Part shown: piece by piece, positions 1,205 to 14,073 of the stretch
Layout: each line of letters opens with the position of its first letter
How positions within the stretch are numbered: the first letter of the stretch is position 1
Assembly (NCBI RefSeq): GCF_026162425.1
Contig: NZ_JAOBQJ010000002.1
Span: 620,001-684,000, forward strand
DNA: 64,000 nt
Source: Flexivirga meconopsidis
GTDB lineage: Bacteria > Actinomycetota > Actinomycetes > Actinomycetales > Dermatophilaceae
Reading direction: 5' to 3'
Translations under genes and position numbers: made by a program
The notes under the pieces: generated by a model
Databases searched by the model: none
What the model was told of the DNA's origin: nothing
What the model saw: the letters and a program-made list of their open reading frames with translations, nothing else

Positions 1205-2563
1205 CTATCGCGGGCCGGACCAGCCCGGTGCCCGTGCCGCGGCCGCGAGCTGGACGGCAAGGTGTTCGTGGTCGGTCGCGACCAGCCCGCAGGTGACGCG
1301 CAGGTGCGGCTCGGGGCTTGCCGCCGCGCTGAACGGGCGGCCCGCGGCAGCACCGATGCCCCGGCTGGCCAGCAGCACGAGCGCCGCCGCCTCGTCGACG
1401 ACGGGCAGCCAGAGGTTCAAGCCTTCACCGTCTGGAAGGTCGATGCCTTCGGCGGCCAGTCCGTCGGCCAACAGCCTTCTGCGCTGGGCGTATTCGACCC
1501 GGGCGTCGGCCACGGCCCGCACCCCTGCCGGATCCCGGAGCAGCTCAAGCAGCACCTGCTGCAGCAGCCGAGAGGTCCACCCCTGACCCAGCAGACGTCG
1601 CTCCACGAGCGGGTCGATCAGGCTGGCTGGACCGCCGACCGCAGCGATGCGCAGGTCCGGACCGTGCGACTTGGAGAAGCTGCGGATGTGCACCGTGCGC
1701 GCCGGCAGTCGTCGCGCCAGACTGACCGGGCCATGGTCGGACAGGTCGCCGGCCGAGTCGTCCTCGATCACCAGACAGTCGTGGTCGGCGAGCGCGCGAC
1801 AGAGCTCCCCTACCCGGGCAGGGGTGAGCGTCGCACCGGTCGGGTTGTGCCCGCGCGGTTGGAGTACGACGAGCCGCACCCGGCCGCTCAACGCCTCCGC
1901 GAGCGCGTCCGATCGCATGCCGTGCCGGTCGACGGCGACCGGCACCGCGACCGCTCCGGCGGCCTCCAGCCGGTCCAGGATCTGGGGGAAGGTCGGGTCC
2001 TCGACCACCACCCGATCACCCGGCCGCACGAACTGCCCGATCACCTGGTCCAAGGCGTCCATCGCGCCGTCCACCACGGTGATGCGCTCGGGCTCACCCG
2101 GCCAGGTCGCGCGCAGTTGCGCTTCCAGCTCGGGCAGCACCGGAGCCTCGAGGTAGCTGCTCGGCCCGGACCCGGTGCGGATTTTGCGCACTGCCGGTCC
2201 CAGGTCGGGCAGCAGCAGCGGGTCCGGCACCCCCGTGGCGAGGTCGAGGGCGAAGGCCGGCCGCGTCTCCAGCGCCTGCCGGTAGCGCGCCGGGCCGCGT
2301 TGCTCCAGTGACGCGATCCGGGTCCCCCGACGGCCGTCGGTGCGTATTGCCCCGGCCCGGGACAGCAGCGACCAGGCGGCGCTGACGGTGGTCGGTGAGA
2401 CCTGCAACCGGTGCGCGACCTGCCGCACCGGGGGCAGCAGATCTCCTGCGGACAGTTCTCCGGATCGGAGTGCGGCGGTCACCGCGTCAGCAATCCCCCG
2501 CGAGCTCGGCTCGGCCAGATGTGCCCGCATCGCGTCGATGGTGGATTCCCGTGCGGTCGCCAT
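1205..2563 (-). CDS. MocR-family regulator (GntR wHTH fused to class I aminotransferase domain)
   Basis: 452 residues. Residues about 20-85 form a GntR-type winged helix ([29 protein letters not shown], then [17 protein letters not shown]). Residues about 100-445 are a fold-type I PLP domain with the Schiff-base lysine at K298 ([11 protein letters not shown]) and PLP contacts at EDPTFP and HNPTG. Such fusions bind PLP or an amino-acid/PLP adduct and act as transcription regulators. It is transcribed divergently from the semialdehyde dehydrogenase gene, so control of the beta-alanine/pyrimidine genes is the natural inference. A TAATGT box lies exactly 7 nt before the ATG, so the transcript is probably leaderless. 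Confidence 0.9.
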
Positions 2564-2623
2564 GTTTGTAACATTACATTGTTTCTATTGTCACGCTACC
2601 CGACCACACGTAGCGTGTCCGGT
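2564..2623. promoter_or_regulatory. Divergent overlapping promoters, MocR gene / semialdehyde dehydrogenase
   Basis: This 60-bp spacer is AT-rich compared with its surroundings. For the plus-strand gene there is TTGTCA (2588-2593), 17 bp, TAGCGT (2611-2616), then 7 nt to ATG 2624, a complete leaderless promoter. For the minus-strand gene, TAATGT (complement of 2571-2576) lies 7 nt from its ATG. The direct repeat ATTGT-N4-ATTGT and the small palindrome GTAACATTAC overlap both promoters. They are candidate MocR binding sites, since MocR proteins often use repeated half-sites. Confidence 0.65.
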
Positions 2624-4114
2624 ATGACGACGGGCATTCACCACTGGATCAACGGGGCCGAGCGCGCCGGCACCTCGGGCAACACCGGACCAGTCTTCAA
2701 TCCGGCAACCGGGCAGCAGACCGGCGAGGTCGACCTGGCCGACGTCGGCGAGGTGGACGCCGCGGTGCAGGCCGCCAAGGAAGCGGCCAAGACCTGGTCG
2801 CGCAGTTCGCTGTCGCAGCGCGCGGGGATCCTCTTCGCCTTCCGGCAGCTGGTCCACGACCACGCCGACGAGCTGGCCGCGATCCTCACTGCCGAGCACG
2901 GCAAGGTGCTCAGCGATGCGAAGGGCGAGCTGGCCCGAGGGTTGGAGAACGTCGAATTCGCCACCGGCATACCGCAATTGCTCAAGGGGGGTTATTCGTC
3001 GCAGGCGTCCACCGGTGTCGACGTCTACTCGATCCGGCAGCCGCTCGGGGTGGTAGCGGGCATCACGCCGTTCAACTTCCCGGCAATGGTGCCGCTGTGG
3101 ATGTGCGCCAACGCAATCGCATGCGGCAACACCTTCGTGTTGAAGCCCAGCGAGAAGGACCCGTCCGCCTCGCTGCTGCTGGCACGCCTGTGGAAGCAAG
3201 CCGGCCTGCCCGACGGCGTCTTCAACGTCGTGCACGGCGACAAGACGGCAGTGGACGCGCTGTTGGACCACCCCGATGTGGCTGCGGTCAGCTTCGTCGG
3301 ATCCACCCCGATCGCGCGTTACATCTACGAGAAGGGCACGCACGCCGGCAAACGAGTGCAGGCACTCGGCGGCGCCAAGAACCACATGGTGGTGCTGCCC
3401 GATGCCGACCTCGACCTTGCCGCGGACGCGGCGGTGTCCGCGGCATACGGTGCCGCCGGCGAGCGCTGTATGGCGATCTCGGTCTGCGTCACCGTCGGCG
3501 ACGTCGCCGACGACCTGGTCCCGGCCATCGCAAAACGACTGCCCTCGTTGCGGATCGGCAATGGTGCCGAGGCGGGCGTCGAGATGGGACCGCTGATCAC
3601 CGCCGAGCACCGCGACAAAGTCGCCGGTTACATCGCCGCGGGCGAGGAGGCCGGCGCGACGTTGGTCACCGACGGCCGCTCCGCCGACGTCCCGGACGAC
3701 GGGTTCTTCCTCGGCACCACGCTGCTGGACAACGTCACCCCGCAGATGAGCGTCTACACCGACGAGATCTTCGGCCCGGTGCTGTCGGTGGTTCGCTGCG
3801 AGACCTTCGAGGAAGCGCTGGAGCTGATCAACGCAAACGAATTTGCAAACGGCACAGCTATTTTCACCCGTGACGGCGGCGCGGCGCGGGAGTTCCAGAA
3901 CGACGTCGAGGTCGGCATGGTCGGCATCAACGTGCCGATCCCGGTGCCGGTCGCCTACTACTCGTTCGGCGGCTGGAAGGCGTCGCTCTTCGGCGACTCC
4001 CACATGTACGGACCCGAGGGCATCAACTTCTACACCCGCGGCAAGGTCGTCACCAGCCGGTGGCCGGACCCGGCGACCTCGCAGGTCGACCTCGGCTTCC
4101 CGACGACCCGCTGA
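2624..4114 (+). CDS. mmsA: CoA-acylating methylmalonate/malonate-semialdehyde dehydrogenase
   Basis: 496 residues of the aldehyde dehydrogenase superfamily. It has the catalytic cysteine C282 ([11 protein letters not shown]), the oxyanion asparagine in TPFNFP and the FVGST cofactor loop. The segment LGGAKNH replaces the LELGG glutamate of hydrolytic ALDHs, which is typical of the CoA-dependent methylmalonate-semialdehyde type. The expected reaction is semialdehyde + CoA + NAD to acetyl- or propionyl-CoA + CO2 + NADH. A longer upstream frame exists, but ATG 2624 has a perfect leaderless promoter and the family's usual length. It is followed 28 nt later by an aminotransferase that would supply its substrate. 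Confidence 0.93.
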
Positions 4115-6072: not shown

Positions 6073-8712
6073 ATGACTGACTCCGCCCACCCGCGCACCG
6101 CCCAGGTCCCCGACAAGCCCACCGTCGACGGCTTGGAGGACAAGTGGGCTGCCGTATGGCGGGAGCAGGGCACCTACAGCTTCGACCGGGACCGTGCGCT
6201 CGAGCTGCCGCGCGACCAGGTCTTCTCGATCGACACTCCCCCGCCGACCGCGAGCGGCAGCCTGCACGTGGGGCACGTCTTCGCCTACACCCACACCGAC
6301 TGCATGGGCCGCTACCAGCGGATGCGCGGCAAGGAGGTGTTCTTCCCGATCGGCTGGGACGACAACGGCCTGCCGACCGAGCGCCGCGTGCAGAACTACT
6401 ACGGCGTGCGCGGCGACCACGGTGCGGCATACGACCCCGACTTCACCCCGCCGCTGCAGGGTGCGGAGGGCAAGTCGGTGAAGGCGGCCGACCAGGTGCC
6501 GGTCAGCCGCGCCAATTTCATCGCGCTGTGCGAGGAGCTCACCGAGAAGGACGAAGTGACCTTCGAGTCGCTCTTCGAGCGGCTCGGCGTCTCCTGCGAC
6601 TGGGCGCGGACCTACCGCACCATCGACGACCGCTCGCGCGCGGTCGCGCAGGAGGCGTTCCTGCACAACGTCGAGCGCGGCGAGGCCTACCAGGCGCAGG
6701 CGCCGGGGCTGTGGGACGTGACCTTCCAATCCGCAGTGGCCCAAGCCGAATTGGAGGCTCGCGACTACCCGGGCGCCTTCCACCGGGTGGCGTTCCACCA
6801 CGGTGACGAGCCGATCTACATCGAGACCACCCGTCCTGAGCTCATCCCGGCCTGCGTGGCGCTGATCGCCCACCCGGACGACGAGCGCTACCAGCCGCTC
6901 TTCGGATCCACCGTCACCTCACCGCTTTTCGGCGTCGAGGTGCCCGTGCTGGCACACCCCGCGGCCGAGCCCGACAAGGGCGCCGGCATCGCGATGTGCT
7001 GCACCTTCGGTGACCTCACCGACGTGATGTGGTGGCGCGAGTTGCAACTGCCGACCCGCTCGATCATCACCCGCGTCGGCCGCCTGCAGGCCGAGACCCC
7101 GGACTGGATCGCCGGCGGTCCCGGCGCCGGCCTGTATGCCGAGAGCCTCGCGGGCAAGACCGTGCACTCGGCCCGCACCGCCGTCGTGGACGCACTGCGG
7201 GAGTCGGGTGACCTCGACGGCGAGCCCAAGCCGACCCAGCGCAAGGCGAACTTCTTCGAGAAGGGCGACAAGCCGCTGGAGATCGTCACCAGCCGCCAGT
7301 GGTACCTCACCAACGGCGGCCGCAACGCCGACCTGCGCAAGGAGCTCGTCGCGCGCGGCGAGCAGGTCCACTTCCACCCGGCGTTCATGCGCAGCCGCTA
7401 CACCAACTGGGTCGACGGCCTCAACGGCGACTGGCTGATCAGCCGCCAGCGCTTCTTCGGGGTGCCGTTCCCGGTCTGGTATCCGCTCGACGCCGACGGC
7501 GAGGCCGACCACGAGCACCCGATCCTCGCCGACCCCGAGTCACTTCCGGTCGATCCGGCGACCGACGTGCCGTCCGGCTACACCGCCGAACAGCGTGACG
7601 TGCCAGGCGGATTCACCGCTGACCCGGACATCATGGACACCTGGGCGACGTCGTCGCTGAGCCCGCAGATCGCCACCGGCTGGCCGGTCGCGAGCAACGC
7701 CGGCGGCCGCAACGACGCCGAGCTCTTCGCCAAGCTCTTCCCGATGGACGTGCGCAGCCAGGGCCACGACATCATCCGCACCTGGCTCTTCTCGACGGTC
7801 GTGCGGGCCCACTTCGAGAACGACACCGTGCCGTGGCAGAACGCCTCGATCAACGGCTGGATCCTCGACCCGGACCGCAAGAAGATGTCCAAGTCGAAGG
7901 GCAACGCGGTCACCCCGGAGGACGTGCTGAAGAAGCACAGCGCCGACGCGGTCCGCTACTGGGCGGCGTCCGGCCGGCTGGGCGCCGATGCGGCATACGA
8001 CGAGAGCCAGATGAAGGTCGGCCGGCGCCTCGCGATGAAGCTGCTCAATGCCAGCAAGTTCGCGCTCGGCATGGGCGAAGTTGAGGGCGACCTGGACGCG
8101 GCCGTCACCGAGCCGCTCGACCTGGCGATGCTGGCCGGCCTGCGCACGGTGGTCGAGCAGGCGACCAAGCACTTCGAGGCGTGGGACTACACCCGCAGCC
8201 TGGAGCTGACCGAGGCGTTCTTCTGGACCTTCTGCGACGACTACATCGAGCTGGTCAAGGATCGCGCGTATGGCGGGCAGGGTGAGGCCGCCGCGGCCAG
8301 CGCCCGCGCGGCGTTGCGCATCGCGCTGAACGTCCAATTGCGTTTGTTCGCACCGTTCCTGCCCTACTCGACCGAGGAAGTGTGGTCGTGGTGGCAGGAG
8401 GGTTCGGTGCACCGCAGCAGCTGGCCGACGGCCGATGAGACCGGCCCCGGCAGCGGCGAGCCGGCCGCGCTGCACGCGGTGGGCGAGGCGCTCGCCGGCC
8501 TGCGCAAGGCCAAGTCGGACGCCAAGCTCGGCATGCGCGCCGAGGTCACCGCCGCCACCCTCGCGGCGCCGGCCGACCTGCAGGAGCTGGTGCGCCGGTC
8601 CGAGCGCGACCTGCGCGCCGCCGGCAAGGTCACCGGCGATCTCGGGTATGACGACGCCGAGCGCCTCGAGGTGCGCGACGTCGAGCTGGTGCCGCCGCCG
8701 CCGAAGCACTAG
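6073..8712 (+). CDS. valS: Valyl-tRNA synthetase
   Basis: 879-residue class Ia aminoacyl-tRNA synthetase that charges tRNA-Val. The HIGH-type signature is HVGH (residues 65-68, in PPPTASGSLHVGHVF) and the second signature is KMSKS (604-608). The segment GWDDNGLPTERRVQNYYGV is characteristic of ValRS. The editing domain lies between them and the anticodon-binding domain follows KMSKS. The start is ATG 6073 because the protein then begins at the usual place (MTDSAHPRT...). No strong Shine-Dalgarno is visible. A short stem (ACCCGGC 8745-8751 with GCCGGGT 8761-8767) lies downstream. Confidence 0.96.
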   Translation: MTDSAHPRTAQVPDKPTVDGLEDKWAAVWREQGTYSFDRDRALELPRDQVFSIDTPPPTASGSLHVGHVFAYTHTDCMGRYQRMRGKEVFFPIGWDDNGLPTERRVQNYYGVRGDHGAAYDPDFTPPLQGAEGKSVKAADQVPVSRANFIALCEELTEKDEVTFESLFERLGVSCDWARTYRTIDDRSRAVAQEAFLHNVERGEAYQAQAPGLWDVTFQSAVAQAELEARDYPGAFHRVAFHHGDEPIYIETTRPELIPACVALIAHPDDERYQPLFGSTVTSPLFGVEVPVLAHPAAEPDKGAGIAMCCTFGDLTDVMWWRELQLPTRSIITRVGRLQAETPDWIAGGPGAGLYAESLAGKTVHSARTAVVDALRESGDLDGEPKPTQRKANFFEKGDKPLEIVTSRQWYLTNGGRNADLRKELVARGEQVHFHPAFMRSRYTNWVDGLNGDWLISRQRFFGVPFPVWYPLDADGEADHEHPILADPESLPVDPATDVPSGYTAEQRDVPGGFTADPDIMDTWATSSLSPQIATGWPVASNAGGRNDAELFAKLFPMDVRSQGHDIIRTWLFSTVVRAHFENDTVPWQNASINGWILDPDRKKMSKSKGNAVTPEDVLKKHSADAVRYWAASGRLGADAAYDESQMKVGRRLAMKLLNASKFALGMGEVEGDLDAAVTEPLDLAMLAGLRTVVEQATKHFEAWDYTRSLELTEAFFWTFCDDYIELVKDRAYGGQGEAAAASARAALRIALNVQLRLFAPFLPYSTEEVWSWWQEGSVHRSSWPTADETGPGSGEPAALHAVGEALAGLRKAKSDAKLGMRAEVTAATLAAPADLQELVRRSERDLRAAGKVTGDLGYDDAERLEVRDVELVPPPPKH

Positions 8713-8783
8713 GTCGCCCCCACAAGGCGGCAAAGAAATGGACAACCCGGCACGCCAGCCGCCGGGTCTGGTTACCTTTGCGT

Positions 8784-9380
8784 ATGTTCGCTGACGTCGC
8801 CGACCGTATCGCCGAGTACCCCCGTGGCCGGCTGCTCGCAGTTGTCGCCGTGATCGCAGCTGCGCTGCTGCTGGTGATCGTCCTGGTCCTCGCCCTCATC
8901 GGGTTCAACTGGCTCAAGGCCGACGACGGCGTCAAGTCGGACATGATTGTCGACCCGCAGCTGCCGACCACCTCCAACCCGACCCAGATGGCGGCCCGGC
9001 TCAACCAGGCGGACGCGAAATGGAACGTGCGAGCAACCTCCCCGTCGCAGGTTCCGGACACCGTGGCTGGGCAGATCAGCCTGCCGCTCAAGGACGACAA
9101 GGCGCTCATCAGCAACCTGGCCGACCCCGATTCGGTCCGCCGCAATGGCGCCCTGCTCATGGTCTGGACCGGTTACTCACCCGCCGCGGAGAAGCTGATC
9201 ACCGACGACCCGCCGGTCTTCGACGACGGCAACCGGGACGGCGCCAAGAAGCGCTACCAACTGGGCACCTGGGTTGCCTACTACTCCCCCGCCGGCGCCG
9301 TCACCAATCGCACCGATGAGGTCCGCGATTACCTCACGGTCGTCGCCAAGTGCCCCTACGACACAAAGCCGTGTGACTGA
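8784..9380 (+). CDS. Membrane-anchored protein of unknown function
   Basis: 198 residues. A short cytoplasmic N-terminus is followed by one strongly hydrophobic helix (about residues 17-43, LLAVVAVIAAALLLVIVLVLALIGF); the remaining ~155 residues would be extracellular. I do not recognise the domain. There is a C-terminal pair of cysteines (AKCPYDTKPCD) seven residues apart that could form a disulfide. TTG 8778 is an alternative start two codons upstream. It converges on the signal peptidase gene, with a weak hairpin (CGCCGA/TCGGCG, 9386-9402) at the junction. Confidence 0.7.
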   Translation: MFADVADRIAEYPRGRLLAVVAVIAAALLLVIVLVLALIGFNWLKADDGVKSDMIVDPQLPTTSNPTQMAARLNQADAKWNVRATSPSQVPDTVAGQISLPLKDDKALISNLADPDSVRRNGALLMVWTGYSPAAEKLITDDPPVFDDGNRDGAKKRYQLGTWVAYYSPAGAVTNRTDEVRDYLTVVAKCPYDTKPCD

Positions 9381-9392
9381 CCCTGCGCCGAC

Positions 9393-10046
9393 TCACTCGG
9401 CGGCAAATCGGACGTTGCGCTCCACCGGCCCGAAATCACCGAGCGGGAAAATCCGCCAGTTGAGCGTGGCGCCGATGTCGTCCCGCCGGACGAAGCCGAA
9501 GATCCGCGAGTCCTGCGATGCGTCCAGGTTGTCGCCGAGCACCCACACGGCGTCGGCCGGCACCGTCGCCGCGGTCGGTCGGGACACACCCATGCGGCCC
9601 TGCTTGTCGCAGCAGGTGACCGGGCGACCCCCGGGGCGCCACGCCGGATTGTCGACCGCCTCCCAGGCTTGCCCAGGTCGCTTGACCTCGACCAGCGGTT
9701 TGCCGGCGACGGTCGACATGCGCACCTGGTCGCCGGGCAAGCCGATGAGGCGCTTGACGGCCCGCTCACGCTGCGGACCGAGCGGCAGCTCGACCAGGTC
9801 GAAGCGGGAGGCACCAGACCCGTGGTTCAGCACGTTCACGACCATCCGGTCACCACTTCGCAACGTGGGCTGCATGCTCTGACCGGACACCGTCGTCGAG
9901 AACGCAAGCGCGATCAAGGCCAGCACGCAGAGCACGACGAGTACGGCGATCGACGCCGAAACGAGCATGATGCGCACCGCCCGCCGGCGGCCGTGGCGAC
10001 GACGTGCATCGACAGTTCCCGGGCTGGCCACTCGTGCTTTCCTCAC
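9393..10046 (-). CDS. lepB: Signal peptidase I
   Basis: 217 residues. There is one N-terminal membrane helix (about 26-50), then the catalytic serine S57 in SGQSMQPTL and the catalytic lysine K98 in ERAVKRLIGLPGDQV; VLGDNLDASQDSR is the conserved C-terminal box. It cleaves signal peptides on the outer face of the membrane. The GTG at 10046 gives the longest plausible N-terminus; there is no clear Shine-Dalgarno. It is divergent from the DUF6230 operon of exported proteins, which is suggestive but does not prove that it is dedicated to them. Confidence 0.9.
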   Translation of the reverse strand: MRKARVASPGTVDARRRHGRRRAVRIMLVSASIAVLVVLCVLALIALAFSTTVSGQSMQPTLRSGDRMVVNVLNHGSGASRFDLVELPLGPQRERAVKRLIGLPGDQVRMSTVAGKPLVEVKRPGQAWEAVDNPAWRPGGRPVTCCDKQGRMGVSRPTAATVPADAVWVLGDNLDASQDSRIFGFVRRDDIGATLNWRIFPLGDFGPVERNVRFAAE

Positions 10047-10228
10047 GCTCGAAGGGCACCGGCGTTACCGGCAGTACGGGTACTTTACAAAATGTGAGAC
10101 GGTGTCCACTTTTTGACGAGACCTGTGTCACACTTGCAGCGCTTTCGGGCCGGCCCGACTCGTCGCGCAGGCCACCCCGCACACCCACGCAGCGCCTGCG
10201 CCGGGTGCCCACATTTCAGGGAGAACGT

Positions 10229-10846
10229 ATGGTCAACAAGGGTATGGGTCGCGTCCGCGTCCCGCGGTTCCTCGCCGTCGCCGCGCCGGCGACGGTGGTC
10301 AGCCTCGGACTCGGCGTCGCGATCGCGCAGGGCATGGTCACCGCTGCTCTCTCCGCGGCTGATCCGTTCGAGCTCGGCAGCAGCAACGTCAAGGCCGATC
10401 AGCTCGGCCTCTCACTGGCCGGCACCCAGGCCGCACAGTCGGTGGGCAACGACACCGCGACGACCAAGAAGGCGGCTCTTGCCCGGCTGGCCGGCGGAAA
10501 CCTGCAGGACATGTGCATCTCCGCCAAGCAGTCCTTCCCGATCCTCGGCGACATTAGCCTCAAGATCTCCTCGACCTCACCGGTCGCGGTCGGCAACATC
10601 GACCTCAGCGCCGACGCCCTCAACGCCCAGAACGCCCAACTGCCGGCCACCGACATCGGCACCAGCGCCGGCGACTCGGCGATCGGCGGCACCGCGGGCG
10701 CGTTCGGTCTGCGCACCGACAAGACCGACCAGGGCATCTCGCTGGACAACCTCGATGCCAAGGCCTACGGCATCCGCCTCAACAGCGGCATCAACCTCAA
10801 GACCCTCTCGATCGTGCCCAAGCTCGGCGTCCAGCACTGCAGCTGA
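10229..10846 (+). CDS. DUF6230 family exported protein, copy 1
   Basis: 205 residues. A hydrophobic segment at about 12-40 (FLAVAAPATVVSLGLGVAIAQGMVTAALSA) acts as signal peptide or anchor; the rest is predicted to be outside. The body has the family pattern: a short strand-rich region, DMCISAKQS, and a final cysteine (GVQHCS). The same two cysteines recur in the two paralogues downstream and probably pair. The function of DUF6230 is unknown. ATG 10229 has AGGGAG upstream. It is the first gene of the operon that runs to 14009. Confidence 0.82.
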   Translation: MVNKGMGRVRVPRFLAVAAPATVVSLGLGVAIAQGMVTAALSAADPFELGSSNVKADQLGLSLAGTQAAQSVGNDTATTKKAALARLAGGNLQDMCISAKQSFPILGDISLKISSTSPVAVGNIDLSADALNAQNAQLPATDIGTSAGDSAIGGTAGAFGLRTDKTDQGISLDNLDAKAYGIRLNSGINLKTLSIVPKLGVQHCS

Positions 10847-10856
10847 CGCCCGACCG

Positions 10857-10887
10857 CCGCCGGCGCGCCTCCCCCGCGCGCCGGCGG
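10857..10887 (+). terminator. Intra-operon GC hairpin
   Basis: A perfect 12-bp stem (CCGCCGGCGCGC 10857-10868 with its complement 10876-10887) and a 7-nt loop lie between the first DUF6230 gene and the first DUF6114 gene. There is no T-run. It could be a partial terminator or an RNA-stabilising element that makes the first gene more abundant than the rest. Confidence 0.6.
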
Positions 10888-10908
10888 TGCGGACCGGAAG
10901 TAGTAACC

Positions 10909-11505
10909 GTGACAAAGCAGGAATCCATCGTGACCGACGAGCAACCAGCGCCCGCGCAGGACGAGGACCGCACTCTCGTCGACGAGCATGTCACTGCGAC
11001 CCGCGGAGCACGCCGTGCCGAGCGCCCGACCGATCAGGACGGGACGCTGCGCCGATGGGCCTCGGCATTCGCACGGTGGCGGCGGACCCGGCCGTTCTGG
11101 GGCGGGATCGTGCTCGCACTGGGCGGCTGGTTCGTGATCACCCCGGTGCTCGCGTCCTACGAGGCCGTCGTCGCGATGGGCGGCGGCGGAATGATCGCCT
11201 ACGTCCTCGGTGGCGGAATGATCGCTGCCGCCGTCGTCGCGGTGATCTCCCCCGCACAACGGCATTTCCCCGCGATCATGGGCGTGATCTTCGCGGTGGC
11301 CTCGCTCGCGATGGCCAACCTCGGCGGTTGGCTGGTCGGCATGCTGCTGGGCATCGTCGGCGGGTCGATGGTGTTCGCCTGGACGCCGTACAACGACGAA
11401 CAGCTCGACCGGATCAACGCCCGCAAACTTCGCCGCCGTCAGGCCGAGCGCACCGACGACGGCCTCGTCGACGACGGTCTCGCCGACGAAGGCACCGATC
11501 GTTGA
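10909..11505 (+). CDS. DUF6114 family membrane protein, copy 1
   Basis: 198 residues. A hydrophilic N-terminal stretch of about 60 residues is followed by RRTRPFWGG and four hydrophobic helices (VLALGGWFVITPVLASYEAVV, GGMIAYVLGGGMIAAAVVAVI, FPAIMGVIFAVASLAMANLGG, MLLGIVGGSMVFAW). The RTRPFWG entry and GIVGGSMVFAW exit motifs are the DUF6114 hallmarks and are shared with the second copy. The function is unknown. GTG 10909 has GGAAG upstream; an in-frame GTG at 10930 with AGGAA is also possible. The charged C-terminal tail (DDGLVDDGLADEGTD) overlaps the next gene. Confidence 0.82.
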   Translation: MTKQESIVTDEQPAPAQDEDRTLVDEHVTATRGARRAERPTDQDGTLRRWASAFARWRRTRPFWGGIVLALGGWFVITPVLASYEAVVAMGGGGMIAYVLGGGMIAAAVVAVISPAQRHFPAIMGVIFAVASLAMANLGGWLVGMLLGIVGGSMVFAWTPYNDEQLDRINARKLRRRQAERTDDGLVDDGLADEGTDR

Positions 11506-12173
11506 AGTCACCGATCACCCGACGGGCTGACCGCCCGACGACCGCGCAGTTCGGCACCCGGCGCCGGGTGCTGATCCCGCTCACCCTCGGCTTTGCCGTG
11601 CTGGCCTCGATGCTGGTGATGACATCCCGCGGTGTGCTCGCACTGACCTTCGCGACCAGTTCCCAGAACTTCCGGGTCTACAGCGACAGCCTCAGCGGCA
11701 GCTCACTGGCTGCGTATGCCGGGCCGCAACAGACCTCCGCGGGAGTGAAAGGCACCGAGCAACTCGTCGTACAGGACGTGCAGTTGCACGGCCTGTGCAT
11801 CATCTCGACAGCGGACCTGCCCGTGCTGGGCAAGGCGTCGATGATCGTGACCGCCGGCGAGCCGGTGGACGGCACCACCGACCCGGCCTTCGCCCCGATT
11901 CGCACCGCGAGCGCGCTGGTGTCCGCGACCTCGATCAACGGGGACGGCCGCGGAGTTTCCAGCCTCGCGGTCGGTCAGAGCGCCGAGACACTGACGACCG
12001 GTTCCGGGCCGTGGCGCGGCACACCCGGGGCTCTCGGCATACAACTCGACACCGCGACCATCGACCGCACCGATCTGGACGCGGCGGGCCTGCAGATCGA
12101 CGGGCAACTGCCGCTGAACCGGCTCGGGATCAAGACCGCGCTCGGCGCGGCAGAGAAGGGATCCTGTTCATGA
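11502..12173 (+). CDS. DUF6230 family exported protein, copy 2
   Basis: 223 residues. An N-terminal basic stretch and a membrane helix (LIPLTLGFAVLASMLVMTSRGVLALTF) precede an exported domain carrying HGLCIISTADLPVLG and the terminal EKGSCS, matching the cysteine pattern of copy 1. The best start is TTG 11502, which overlaps the stop of the DUF6114 gene as TTGA and has GAAGG upstream; no ATG or GTG lies suitably close. A rare start codon here would keep translation coupled to the preceding gene. Function unknown. Confidence 0.78.
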   Translation: MKSPITRRADRPTTAQFGTRRRVLIPLTLGFAVLASMLVMTSRGVLALTFATSSQNFRVYSDSLSGSSLAAYAGPQQTSAGVKGTEQLVVQDVQLHGLCIISTADLPVLGKASMIVTAGEPVDGTTDPAFAPIRTASALVSATSINGDGRGVSSLAVGQSAETLTTGSGPWRGTPGALGIQLDTATIDRTDLDAAGLQIDGQLPLNRLGIKTALGAAEKGSCS

Positions 12174-12598
12174 ACCGCCGTGTCGGCCGCCTGCTCGACG
12201 GCTTCGCCGCCTTCCGCAGGACTCGCCCGTTCTGGGGCGCACTCCTGCTGGTGGCGGCCGGCGCCGACGTCATCTACTTCGCCGGTTACCCGATCTTCTT
12301 CGCGGTGAGCGGTGGCTGGAACTCCTCTGCGGCGTACATCCTCGGCGGCGGGCTCATCCTCTTCGGACTGGTCGCGGCGATGGCACCGATCCATTCCCCG
12401 CTGCTCGGGGTGCTCGGCGTGCTGGTCGCGCTCGCCGCGTTCGTCGCGGCCAACCTGGGCGGCATGCTGCTCGGCACGCTGCTCGGCATCGTCGGCGGGT
12501 CGATGGTCTTCGCCTGGGGTGAGAAGAAGCCGGGCAAACGCCAATCGACCCCGGACGCGTCCACCCCTGCACCAGCCGCGGAGGTCGTCGGTCGGTGA
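12170..12598 (+). CDS. DUF6114 family membrane protein, copy 2
   Basis: 142 residues, four hydrophobic helices. It shares FRRTRPFWGALLL at the start and LLGTLLGIVGGSMVFAWGE at the end of the membrane part with copy 1 but lacks copy 1's long N-terminal extension. The tail after the last helix is short and Ala/Pro-rich. ATG 12170 overlaps the stop of the preceding gene (ATGA) and has GAGAAGGGA upstream. The pairing DUF6230-DUF6114 repeated twice suggests that each membrane protein partners an exported one; this is inference. Confidence 0.82.
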   Translation: MNRRVGRLLDGFAAFRRTRPFWGALLLVAAGADVIYFAGYPIFFAVSGGWNSSAAYILGGGLILFGLVAAMAPIHSPLLGVLGVLVALAAFVAANLGGMLLGTLLGIVGGSMVFAWGEKKPGKRQSTPDASTPAPAAEVVGR

Positions 12599-13305
12599 GC
12601 ACCTACCAGCCTTCCCGACGCATGCAGTCGTTGACGGTGATCGTCGCCGTGCTGCTGTTCGTGGTGACTTGGCTCGCGCTGGCGACCCAGACGTCCGCGA
12701 GCGCCGCGAGCGCGCCATGCGGACCGGGTGACGCCAACCGGGCGGCCCTGAAGACCGTGCACGGCGAACGCGCGTTGCGGCCCTGCCTTTCCAAGGTCAA
12801 CCTCAAGCTGTCGATCCCGCAGGACGGGTTGCGAAGTCGGTTCAACGTCAAAGAGATTCGCCGGGCCGGCCAGGAGACGGTGAAGTTCGCCGACGGCAGC
12901 ACCGAGAAGCTGTGGCATCTGTCGTTCGCGTCGTTCAAGGTCCTCGACGGAGCCACGATCCGCACCACGGACAACAACGACGCGCAGGTGTCGATCACCC
13001 CCGACAAGGAGGCGTCGTTCGGTGGCGCCGCCGACTCCGGCAAGCCGATCTACACCGATGTGTGGGTCTCCGCGGCGACCTTCCGGATCAACCTGTTGCT
13101 CATCGGCTGCCTGGTGCCGATCGATGTGAGCAACCCGCTGCTCGCCCTGGTGACGGTCGCCAACAGCGCCATACCCAACGCGATCACCCTGGGCGGCTGC
13201 GCCATCGACATGGACATCCGCTACCTGGTCAGTTACAGCGACGACCCCAGCTCGGCCGGCAACTACCCGGTGCGCTTGCCCAACACGACGTTGTCGCTGT
13301 CATGA
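12595..13305 (+). CDS. Exported protein of unknown family in the DUF6230 operon
   Basis: 236 residues. A cleavable-looking signal peptide spans about residues 10-38 (SLTVIVAVLLFVVTWLALATQTSASAASA). The mature part has four cysteines (SAPCGPG, LRPCLSK, LIGCLVP, LGGCAID) and alternating hydrophobic strands. I do not recognise the family, and it lacks the DUF6230 cysteine motif. GTG 12595 overlaps the previous stop (GTGA) and its own stop overlaps the next ATG, so it is translated as part of the operon. Confidence 0.75.
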   Translation: MSTYQPSRRMQSLTVIVAVLLFVVTWLALATQTSASAASAPCGPGDANRAALKTVHGERALRPCLSKVNLKLSIPQDGLRSRFNVKEIRRAGQETVKFADGSTEKLWHLSFASFKVLDGATIRTTDNNDAQVSITPDKEASFGGAADSGKPIYTDVWVSAATFRINLLLIGCLVPIDVSNPLLALVTVANSAIPNAITLGGCAIDMDIRYLVSYSDDPSSAGNYPVRLPNTTLSLS

Positions 13306-14009
13306 GCACCGACAGCGCCACGCGCGCCACCGTCCGCACCGGGACCCGATGGGGCCGTGCCGGTGCGCTCGCCGCCGCGGGGGTCGCCGCGACGATCGGC
13401 CTCGGCACCTTGATGAGTCAGAACGTGCTGGCCACCCAGGTGACTTTCCAGGGCAACCCGTCGCAGGTCTCGGTGGGCGGCCTCACCGGCAACAAGGTGG
13501 GCATCACCGTCGTGCGCAGCACGCGCAGCGTCGACGGCAAGCTCACCACCGGTCCGGCGCTGCGGGTCGGCGCGGCCGGCCTGCAGCTCGACGGGCTGTG
13601 CCTGTCGCAGAAGCAGAGCATCGCGGGCATCGACTACACCGTGCGGGTCAGCGCGGGCGACGGCAACTCATCAACCCACGAGATCCAGGCGCAGGACGCG
13701 ACCTTCGACGTGACGTCGATCAAGGGCGACGGCAATCCTGGGCTGAACCTCGACGGCGTCGTCGAGATCGGCGTGAGCGGCGACTCGCTGGTCACCACGG
13801 ATACCGGTGGCGAGCCGGACCCGAACCCGCTCGGTGCACCGTCCGGCACCGGGTGGTTCGGCATCAACAGCGGCGTCGGGCAGTTCAGCAACATCCGGGG
13901 CCGGATGTACGGCTTCAAGGTCAGTGAGGTCGCCAAGATGCCCGGCGTGCGGATCTCGGTGACCCCGGGCACCTCCGACAGTTGCGACAGCAAGCCCATT
14001 CAGCACTGA
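13302..14009 (+). CDS. DUF6230 family exported protein, copy 3
   Basis: 235 residues. The N-terminus (RAGALAAAGVAATIGLGTLMSQNVLATQVTF) looks like a signal anchor. The domain repeats the family motif as LDGLCLSQKQSIAG and ends with a cysteine in TSDSCDSKPIQH. It is longer than copy 1 because of an insertion (GDSLVTTDTGGEPDPNP). ATG 13302 overlaps the preceding stop by four bases. It is the last gene of the operon; the next gene has its own promoter. Function unknown. Confidence 0.8.
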   Translation: MSTDSATRATVRTGTRWGRAGALAAAGVAATIGLGTLMSQNVLATQVTFQGNPSQVSVGGLTGNKVGITVVRSTRSVDGKLTTGPALRVGAAGLQLDGLCLSQKQSIAGIDYTVRVSAGDGNSSTHEIQAQDATFDVTSIKGDGNPGLNLDGVVEIGVSGDSLVTTDTGGEPDPNPLGAPSGTGWFGINSGVGQFSNIRGRMYGFKVSEVAKMPGVRISVTPGTSDSCDSKPIQH

Positions 14010-14073
14010 GCGCACCGGCATACGTTCGGTAACGAAGTAGCTCGCCCTGCGACCACGCGGTTGCCGGACGATC

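Follow-up and report, generated by a model that had tools for sequence, protein, structure and literature searches.

DUF6230 and DUF6114 are already known as families of domains of unknown function (DUFs), and genes for them are found repeatedly in Streptomyces and in many other actinobacteria, some of which carry more than one copy. Here, a cluster of such genes in Flexivirga meconopsidis was compared with the closest described systems; the cluster lies in a 64,000-nucleotide stretch of DNA (contig NZ_JAOBQJ010000002.1, positions 620,001 to 684,000; hereafter, the window). Six of its genes are lettered in order: A, C, and F encode exported DUF6230 proteins, B and D encode DUF6114 membrane proteins, and E encodes a further exported protein. 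The Streptomyces genes SCO5420-SCO5421-SCO5422, identified by synteny, share with the window the DUF6230-DUF6114 core in the same order, an exported protein with a profile match to DUF6230, and a hairpin after the DUF6230 gene. Unlike the window, this locus has one DUF6230 and one DUF6114 gene, no signal peptidase gene, and an exported domain, here called T, rather than E, and it lies beside pyruvate kinase. SCO5420 is annotated as an actinomycete cholesterol esterase, but Ser and His are not conserved in the DUF6230 family. Expanded clusters of Nocardioides (loci L091, L092, L095, and L168) share with the window a divergent signal peptidase I gene followed by A to F in the same order, and four Nocardioides clusters also carry a gene for a 200-amino-acid (aa) protein found in the window. 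They differ in their chromosomal site and, in some cases, by an extra DUF6230 gene after F. The window proteins are about 33 to 46% identical to their nearest relatives.

A comparison can also be drawn with SipW-TasA-TapA of Bacillus, in which a dedicated signal peptidase adjoins exported beta-protein subunits. This biofilm fibre system is discussed in PMC4292775. The window cluster likewise encodes a signal peptidase together with exported subunits, and the peptidase would be functionally dedicated to them. It differs in having integral-membrane DUF6114 partners, in a peptidase that fits the typical signal peptidase I model and not SipW, and in giving no TasA match in the PDB by fold or profile (E <= 0.001). 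By analogy, the cluster may work like surface systems with a dedicated signal peptidase, although by the tests made it is not a member of them. The first-pass annotation had described a six-gene operon starting at A. An operon is present there, but the unit starts earlier and includes the signal peptidase and 200-aa genes; the cluster is a genuine, conserved envelope cassette, larger and better delimited than first noted. The literature searched, which lay mostly outside subscription papers, gave no description of the assembled system, the extra peptidase, E, or the limits of the cassette; DUF6230 was mentioned in one paper and DUF6114 in none.

The DUF6230-DUF6114 partnership and two cluster designs

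The co-occurrence of the two families was surveyed in 198 genomes across the phylum. DUF6230 was found in 15 genomes and DUF6114 in 17, and DUF6114 was present in all 15 of the genomes with DUF6230. In the two genomes that apparently contained DUF6114 only, the protein encoded upstream scored 38.1 and 26.6 bits for DUF6230, which are above and just below the Pfam gathering cut-off, respectively (27.5 bits for DUF6230, PF19741; 27.9 bits for DUF6114, PF19609). All 26 DUF6114 genes in these genomes sit after a DUF6230 gene or a near-threshold relative. By coordinates, a DUF6114 gene comes after each DUF6230 gene other than the terminal F copies, and in two Rhodococcus plasmids a DUF6230-DUF6114 pair stands with no other annotated relative. 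A single DUF6230 gene with a single DUF6114 gene makes up the family's minimal unit, and the two are near-obligate partners. The dedicated partnership proposed in the first-pass annotation was thereby borne out, since the families were not found apart in the survey. Its picture of alternating exported and membrane proteins holds for the order A-B and C-D, but F has no DUF6114 gene of its own and the exported E lies between D and F.

A scan of named genome contigs yielded 78 loci, a set biased towards expanded-type relatives by the 7-sequence DUF6114 alignment used (a 25-sequence alignment was too diverse). They were annotated together with earlier loci by single-round hidden Markov models (HMMs) and non-overlap filtering, and two designs, simple and expanded, were distinguished among about 100 loci. 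The simple design consists of DUF6230-DUF6114, often followed by T. In some loci T is fused to DUF6114, and the two fusions examined both have an additional hydrophobic segment before T. The expanded design has the order signal peptidase, DUF6230, DUF6114, DUF6230, DUF6114, E, DUF6230. Its peptidase gene is divergent in the window, Nocardioides, Aeromicrobium, Actinokineospora, and Haloechinothrix, and is first and co-directional in Streptomyces. A signal peptidase I gene was found beside 44 of the 48 expanded loci versus 1 of the 52 simple loci; many Streptomyces loci are closely related and cannot be counted as independent, but the same contrast is seen in several families. Two of the four expanded loci without the peptidase (L098 and L121) start at a contig end, and the contig of the sole simple locus with one (L094) is cut just after DUF6114. 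The divergent signal peptidase I gene noticed next to A in the first-pass annotation is thus part of an association specific to the expanded design, and it gives a testable actinobacterial example of a signal peptidase that would serve a single set of substrates. In Smaragdicoccus niigatensis (L127) and at L151, two copies of the module lie in tandem, with no signal peptidase I gene found next to them. Some of the Nocardioides loci L091, L092, L093, and L095 have a further DUF6230-like gene after F, and L093 has an additional DUF6114-like match.

The window peptidase belongs to the S26 family, with 100.6 bits for TIGR02227 (cut-off, 47) and a match to Peptidase_S26, and the motifs GQSMQPTL, VKRLIGLPGD, and GDN can be read in its sequence. 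Because the remaining S26 matches of the genome lie together elsewhere (C3:260-262 kb), this gene is an extra copy.

Extent and gene content of the Flexivirga cassette

The cassette boundaries were defined against congeners. In G610, which is 96% identical up to and including the end of valS, homology ends at window position 8710 and restarts at 14017, and 63 bp occupy the place of 5,306 bp in the window. In G611 and G612, a DUF4129 gene directly follows valS, and in G613 one unrelated gene call lies between valS and DUF4129. The cassette, comprising the 200-aa gene, the signal peptidase gene, and A to F, is therefore missing from four congeners. DUF6230 was detected in one of the five genomes of the genus and in none of the other sampled genomes of its family. 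A search of six related genomes did not find the 200-aa gene; its homologues adjoin the signal peptidase gene in four Nocardioides clusters, which supports its place in the cassette. No integrase or transposase gene was seen within the 5,306-bp insert, and its GC content (0.682) is slightly lower than that of the flanks (0.703 and 0.720). As judged from these comparisons, the simplest explanation is that the 5.3-kb block was probably gained as a unit in this lineage, although it is also conceivable that all four congeners lost it. The distribution is sporadic, and the cassette is apparently transferable. Such a naturally bounded cassette defines the exact eight genes for experimental transfer or deletion. 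A phage origin was considered and rejected; viral contigs scanned with D and plasmids searched with C gave no result. A defence island was also rejected; scanning a defence library gave one marginal match only, to the 200-aa gene (E = 0.0046). In G610 (L195, about 2537 to 3199), the DUF4129 gene is reduced to 44 residues, and the MoxR-DUF58 block (about 14.1 to 17.6 kb in the window) is missing before clpX. Hence, this site has been altered twice in the genus.

The genes are listed in Table 1. The three DUF6230 and two DUF6114 genes of the first-pass annotation were recovered within the same coordinates, all above the gathering cut-offs. Its four-base overlaps were found at B/C (TTGA), C/D (ATGA), D/E (GTGA), and E/F (ATGA), but A and B are 62 bp apart. 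Because all six frames are open with high GC content at third codon positions (0.84 to 0.92) and the gene order recurs in many genera, the operon is not a chance arrangement. The four predicted transmembrane (TM) segments in both B and D, whose N- and C-terminal tails are charged, and the signal peptides of the exported proteins agree with the envelope location suggested earlier. A scan for sigma-70 promoters and terminators gave no result.

Table 1. Features of the cassette in window coordinates
Feature	Position	Strand	Evidence
Inserted cassette, eight genes, 5,306 bp	8711..14016		Homology break versus congener G610
200-aa single-TM protein, unknown family, TTG start as listed	8778..9380	+	Homologues adjoin signal peptidase in Nocardioides
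Signal peptidase I, extra copy	9393..10046	-	PF10502, 94.4 bits; TIGR02227 above cut-off
A, exported DUF6230, first-position type	10229..10846	+	PF19741, 55.7 bits; groups with A-position proteins
A-B gap, 14-bp GC stem-loop	10847..10908	+	Fold -36.5 kcal/mol; long stems at same place in relatives
B, DUF6114 four-TM protein	10909..11505	+	PF19609, 109.5 bits; four hydrophobic segments
C, exported DUF6230, second-position type, TTG start	11502..12173	+	PF19741, 66.3 bits; AlphaFold2 pLDDT 93, mature part
D, DUF6114 four-TM protein	12170..12598	+	PF19609, 95.4 bits; four hydrophobic segments
E, exported, E-slot family, probable distant DUF6230 relative	12595..13305	+	8.6e-19 (HMM without window E); wide-family profile P 9e-10
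F, exported DUF6230, last-position type	13302..14009	+	PF19741, 61.0 bits; F group 100/99

The exported proteins

The relationships of the DUF6230 copies were examined in a maximum-likelihood tree built from 64 of these domains. The 17 F-position proteins all fell into one group (support 100/99), and C of the window grouped with C-position proteins only (100/98). A of the window grouped with seven other A-position proteins and one protein from a truncated contig (100/99), and the A-position proteins as a whole did not form one group. Judged by this tree, the copies separated long ago and are for the most part tied to their positions, as would be expected if they were different subunits. A recent local triplication of DUF6230 was rejected in view of these old groups.

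A GC-rich stem-loop (window 10847-10892) lies directly 3' of the first DUF6230 gene, and its position is conserved while its sequence is not. Long GC stems were found in the A-B gaps of L091, L092, L093, L095, L168, L096, L097, and L104. Compared with mononucleotide shuffles, the stems reached z scores of about -3 to -5.5 in ten loci, and the window stem was weaker (-1.2). Such stems can protect the upstream message, and for this reason A may be made in excess.

Two cysteines and one glycine, and nothing else, were nearly invariant in 86 DUF6230 proteins, among which no Ser, His, or Asp was nearly invariant. Both cysteines were present in 164 of 176 DUF6230 proteins and neither in 6; a single cysteine was left in 6, mostly because of apparent alignment cuts. 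A, C, and F of the window each have both, and this covariation upholds the earlier suggestion of one conserved disulfide. The AlphaFold2 model of C is all-beta and confident, with strands of up to 23 residues, a predicted local distance difference test score (pLDDT) of 93, and a predicted template modeling score (pTM) of 0.86; the model of E was poorer (pLDDT 67). With the C model, Foldseek gave no match at E <= 0.001, either in the PDB or in a set of viral models, and PDB profile searches with DUF6230, DUF6114, and E gave nothing or chance-level matches.

The first-pass annotation called the product of E unrelated to its neighbors, which was contradicted by the wider comparison. An exported protein of roughly 205 to 330 aa occupies the slot between the second DUF6114 and the last DUF6230 gene in every expanded cluster examined. 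E of the window had no Pfam match and did not reach the DUF6230 cut-off, and it was retrieved at 8.6e-19 by an E-family HMM built without the window sequence. Narrow and wide E families matched each other by profile (P = 1e-14). The wide family matched DUF6230 over most of its length (P = 9e-10; controls, 0.002 or weaker), whereas the narrow family alone gave P = 0.02, by which no relationship was shown. Thus, E is a probable distant DUF6230 relative, and its presence in all expanded clusters examined together with the profile match led to the rejection of an unrelated passenger. Because T also matched the DUF6230 profile (P = 7.6e-6), the exported proteins, including E and T, probably constitute one superfamily.

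Possible function and competing explanations

The first-pass annotation stated that no function is known for either domain. This needs qualification, because SCO5420, named "cholesterol esterase", was induced almost 37-fold on Tween40 in one RNA sequencing study (PMC7494193). The Streptomyces DUF6230-DUF6114-T genes are flanked by a thioredoxin-like gene on one side and pyruvate kinase on the other; with pyk2 as SCO5423 (PMC7494193), gene counting identifies SCO5420 as the Streptomyces DUF6230 gene, by synteny rather than by record look-up. The enzyme name probably goes back to Xiang et al. 2007 (cited in PMC4098958), whose purified Streptomyces cholesterol esterases may be DUF6230 proteins. 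The conserved Ser-His catalytic residues of a cholesterol esterase were not found in the 86 DUF6230 proteins, and no invariant His occurs across the 12 proteins of the SCO5420 clade. For these reasons a classical serine esterase is unlikely, and the only functional label of the family has no backing from conserved catalytic residues. Lipid genes lie beside several simple loci, namely 3-hydroxyacyl-CoA dehydrogenase with thiolase, P450, and squalene/prenyl synthase with an MpaB/Lcp oxygenase. Among the neighbors of simple loci, TetR regulators are the most frequent (12 of 96 proteins), and in the expanded cluster of G061 a fatty acid desaturase gene lies downstream. These observations make the handling of lipids or detergents the best lead but do not demonstrate it.

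We propose that A, C, E, and F are homologous or probably homologous all-beta proteins that would be exported through Sec and processed by the cassette's own signal peptidase I, with one disulfide stabilizing A, C, and F. They would assemble on the two four-TM DUF6114 proteins in fixed, non-interchangeable roles, probably with A in excess. Most likely, they would act at the cell surface without catalysis, by binding hydrophobic compounds such as acyl or sterol lipids, extracting them, or letting them pass. This explanation is preferred because DUF6230-DUF6114 adjacency extends across the phylum and the whole set was inserted at one site; because the peptidase accompanies the expanded and not the simple loci, A, C, and F are position-specific, and E is present throughout; and because the cysteines covary and the all-beta model is without conserved catalytic residues. 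Lipid handling is included because of the name and Tween40 induction of SCO5420 and because of the lipid and TetR genes beside several loci. We regard the whole statement, lipid handling included, as plausible but somewhat less likely than not, and consider it likely that the cassette encodes an envelope assembly with a dedicated peptidase, whatever its job. Several points weigh against the proposal. The physical complex and processing by this peptidase are inferences, no lipid-binding fold was recognized by Foldseek in the PDB, and the Tween induction comes from one study of a locus of the simple, not the expanded, design. In addition, many neighboring genes are unrelated to lipids, and the Nocardioides expanded cluster adjoins genes that resemble, by eye, a dnaJ/hspR/grpE/dnaK set. 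That the locus represents a new kind of actinobacterial envelope machine, in which exported proteins with an all-beta fold not seen in the PDB sit on DUF6114 and the expanded form travels as an eight-gene cassette with its peptidase, is put forward only tentatively.

The dedicated peptidase, the fixed order of four related exported subunits, the hairpin that follows the first of their genes, and the absence of conserved catalytic residues would also suit a structural surface polymer, in which the exported proteins would make up a fibre or surface layer as its major and minor components, on a DUF6114 membrane base. However, no TasA-like or pilin-like fold match was found, the simple design has one DUF6230 gene and no peptidase, and the Tween induction would be left unexplained; by analogy with SipW-TasA-TapA, such a polymer is conceivable but rather unlikely. 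The induction and the SCO5420 annotation (PMC7494193), and the work of Xiang et al. 2007, would be accounted for if DUF6230 proteins were unusual secreted esterases of the actinomycete cholesterol esterase family, anchored in the membrane by DUF6114. This enzymatic explanation is improbable in view of the residue conservation described above, the predicted fold, which is not that of an alpha/beta hydrolase, and the tentative link between DUF6230 and the enzyme of Xiang et al. A low probability is also given to an accessory module for envelope stress or tolerance, whose complex would sense or protect against detergents, antimicrobials, or other toxic compounds of a hydrophobic kind. The TetR neighbors of the simple design and the sporadic, transferable distribution are consistent with such a module, but DUF6114 has no signalling domain, the cassette has no regulator, and no defence-family match was found.

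At L030, the third DUF6230 locus of G124, the pair lies between an MpaB/Lcp-type oxygenase gene and a squalene/prenyl synthase gene. In Nocardioides (L075/L108, L091-L093, L099, L100, L131, and L168), the cluster lies, as read by eye, between a gene for a DUF445-like conserved membrane protein and dnaJ/hspR/grpE/dnaK-like genes.

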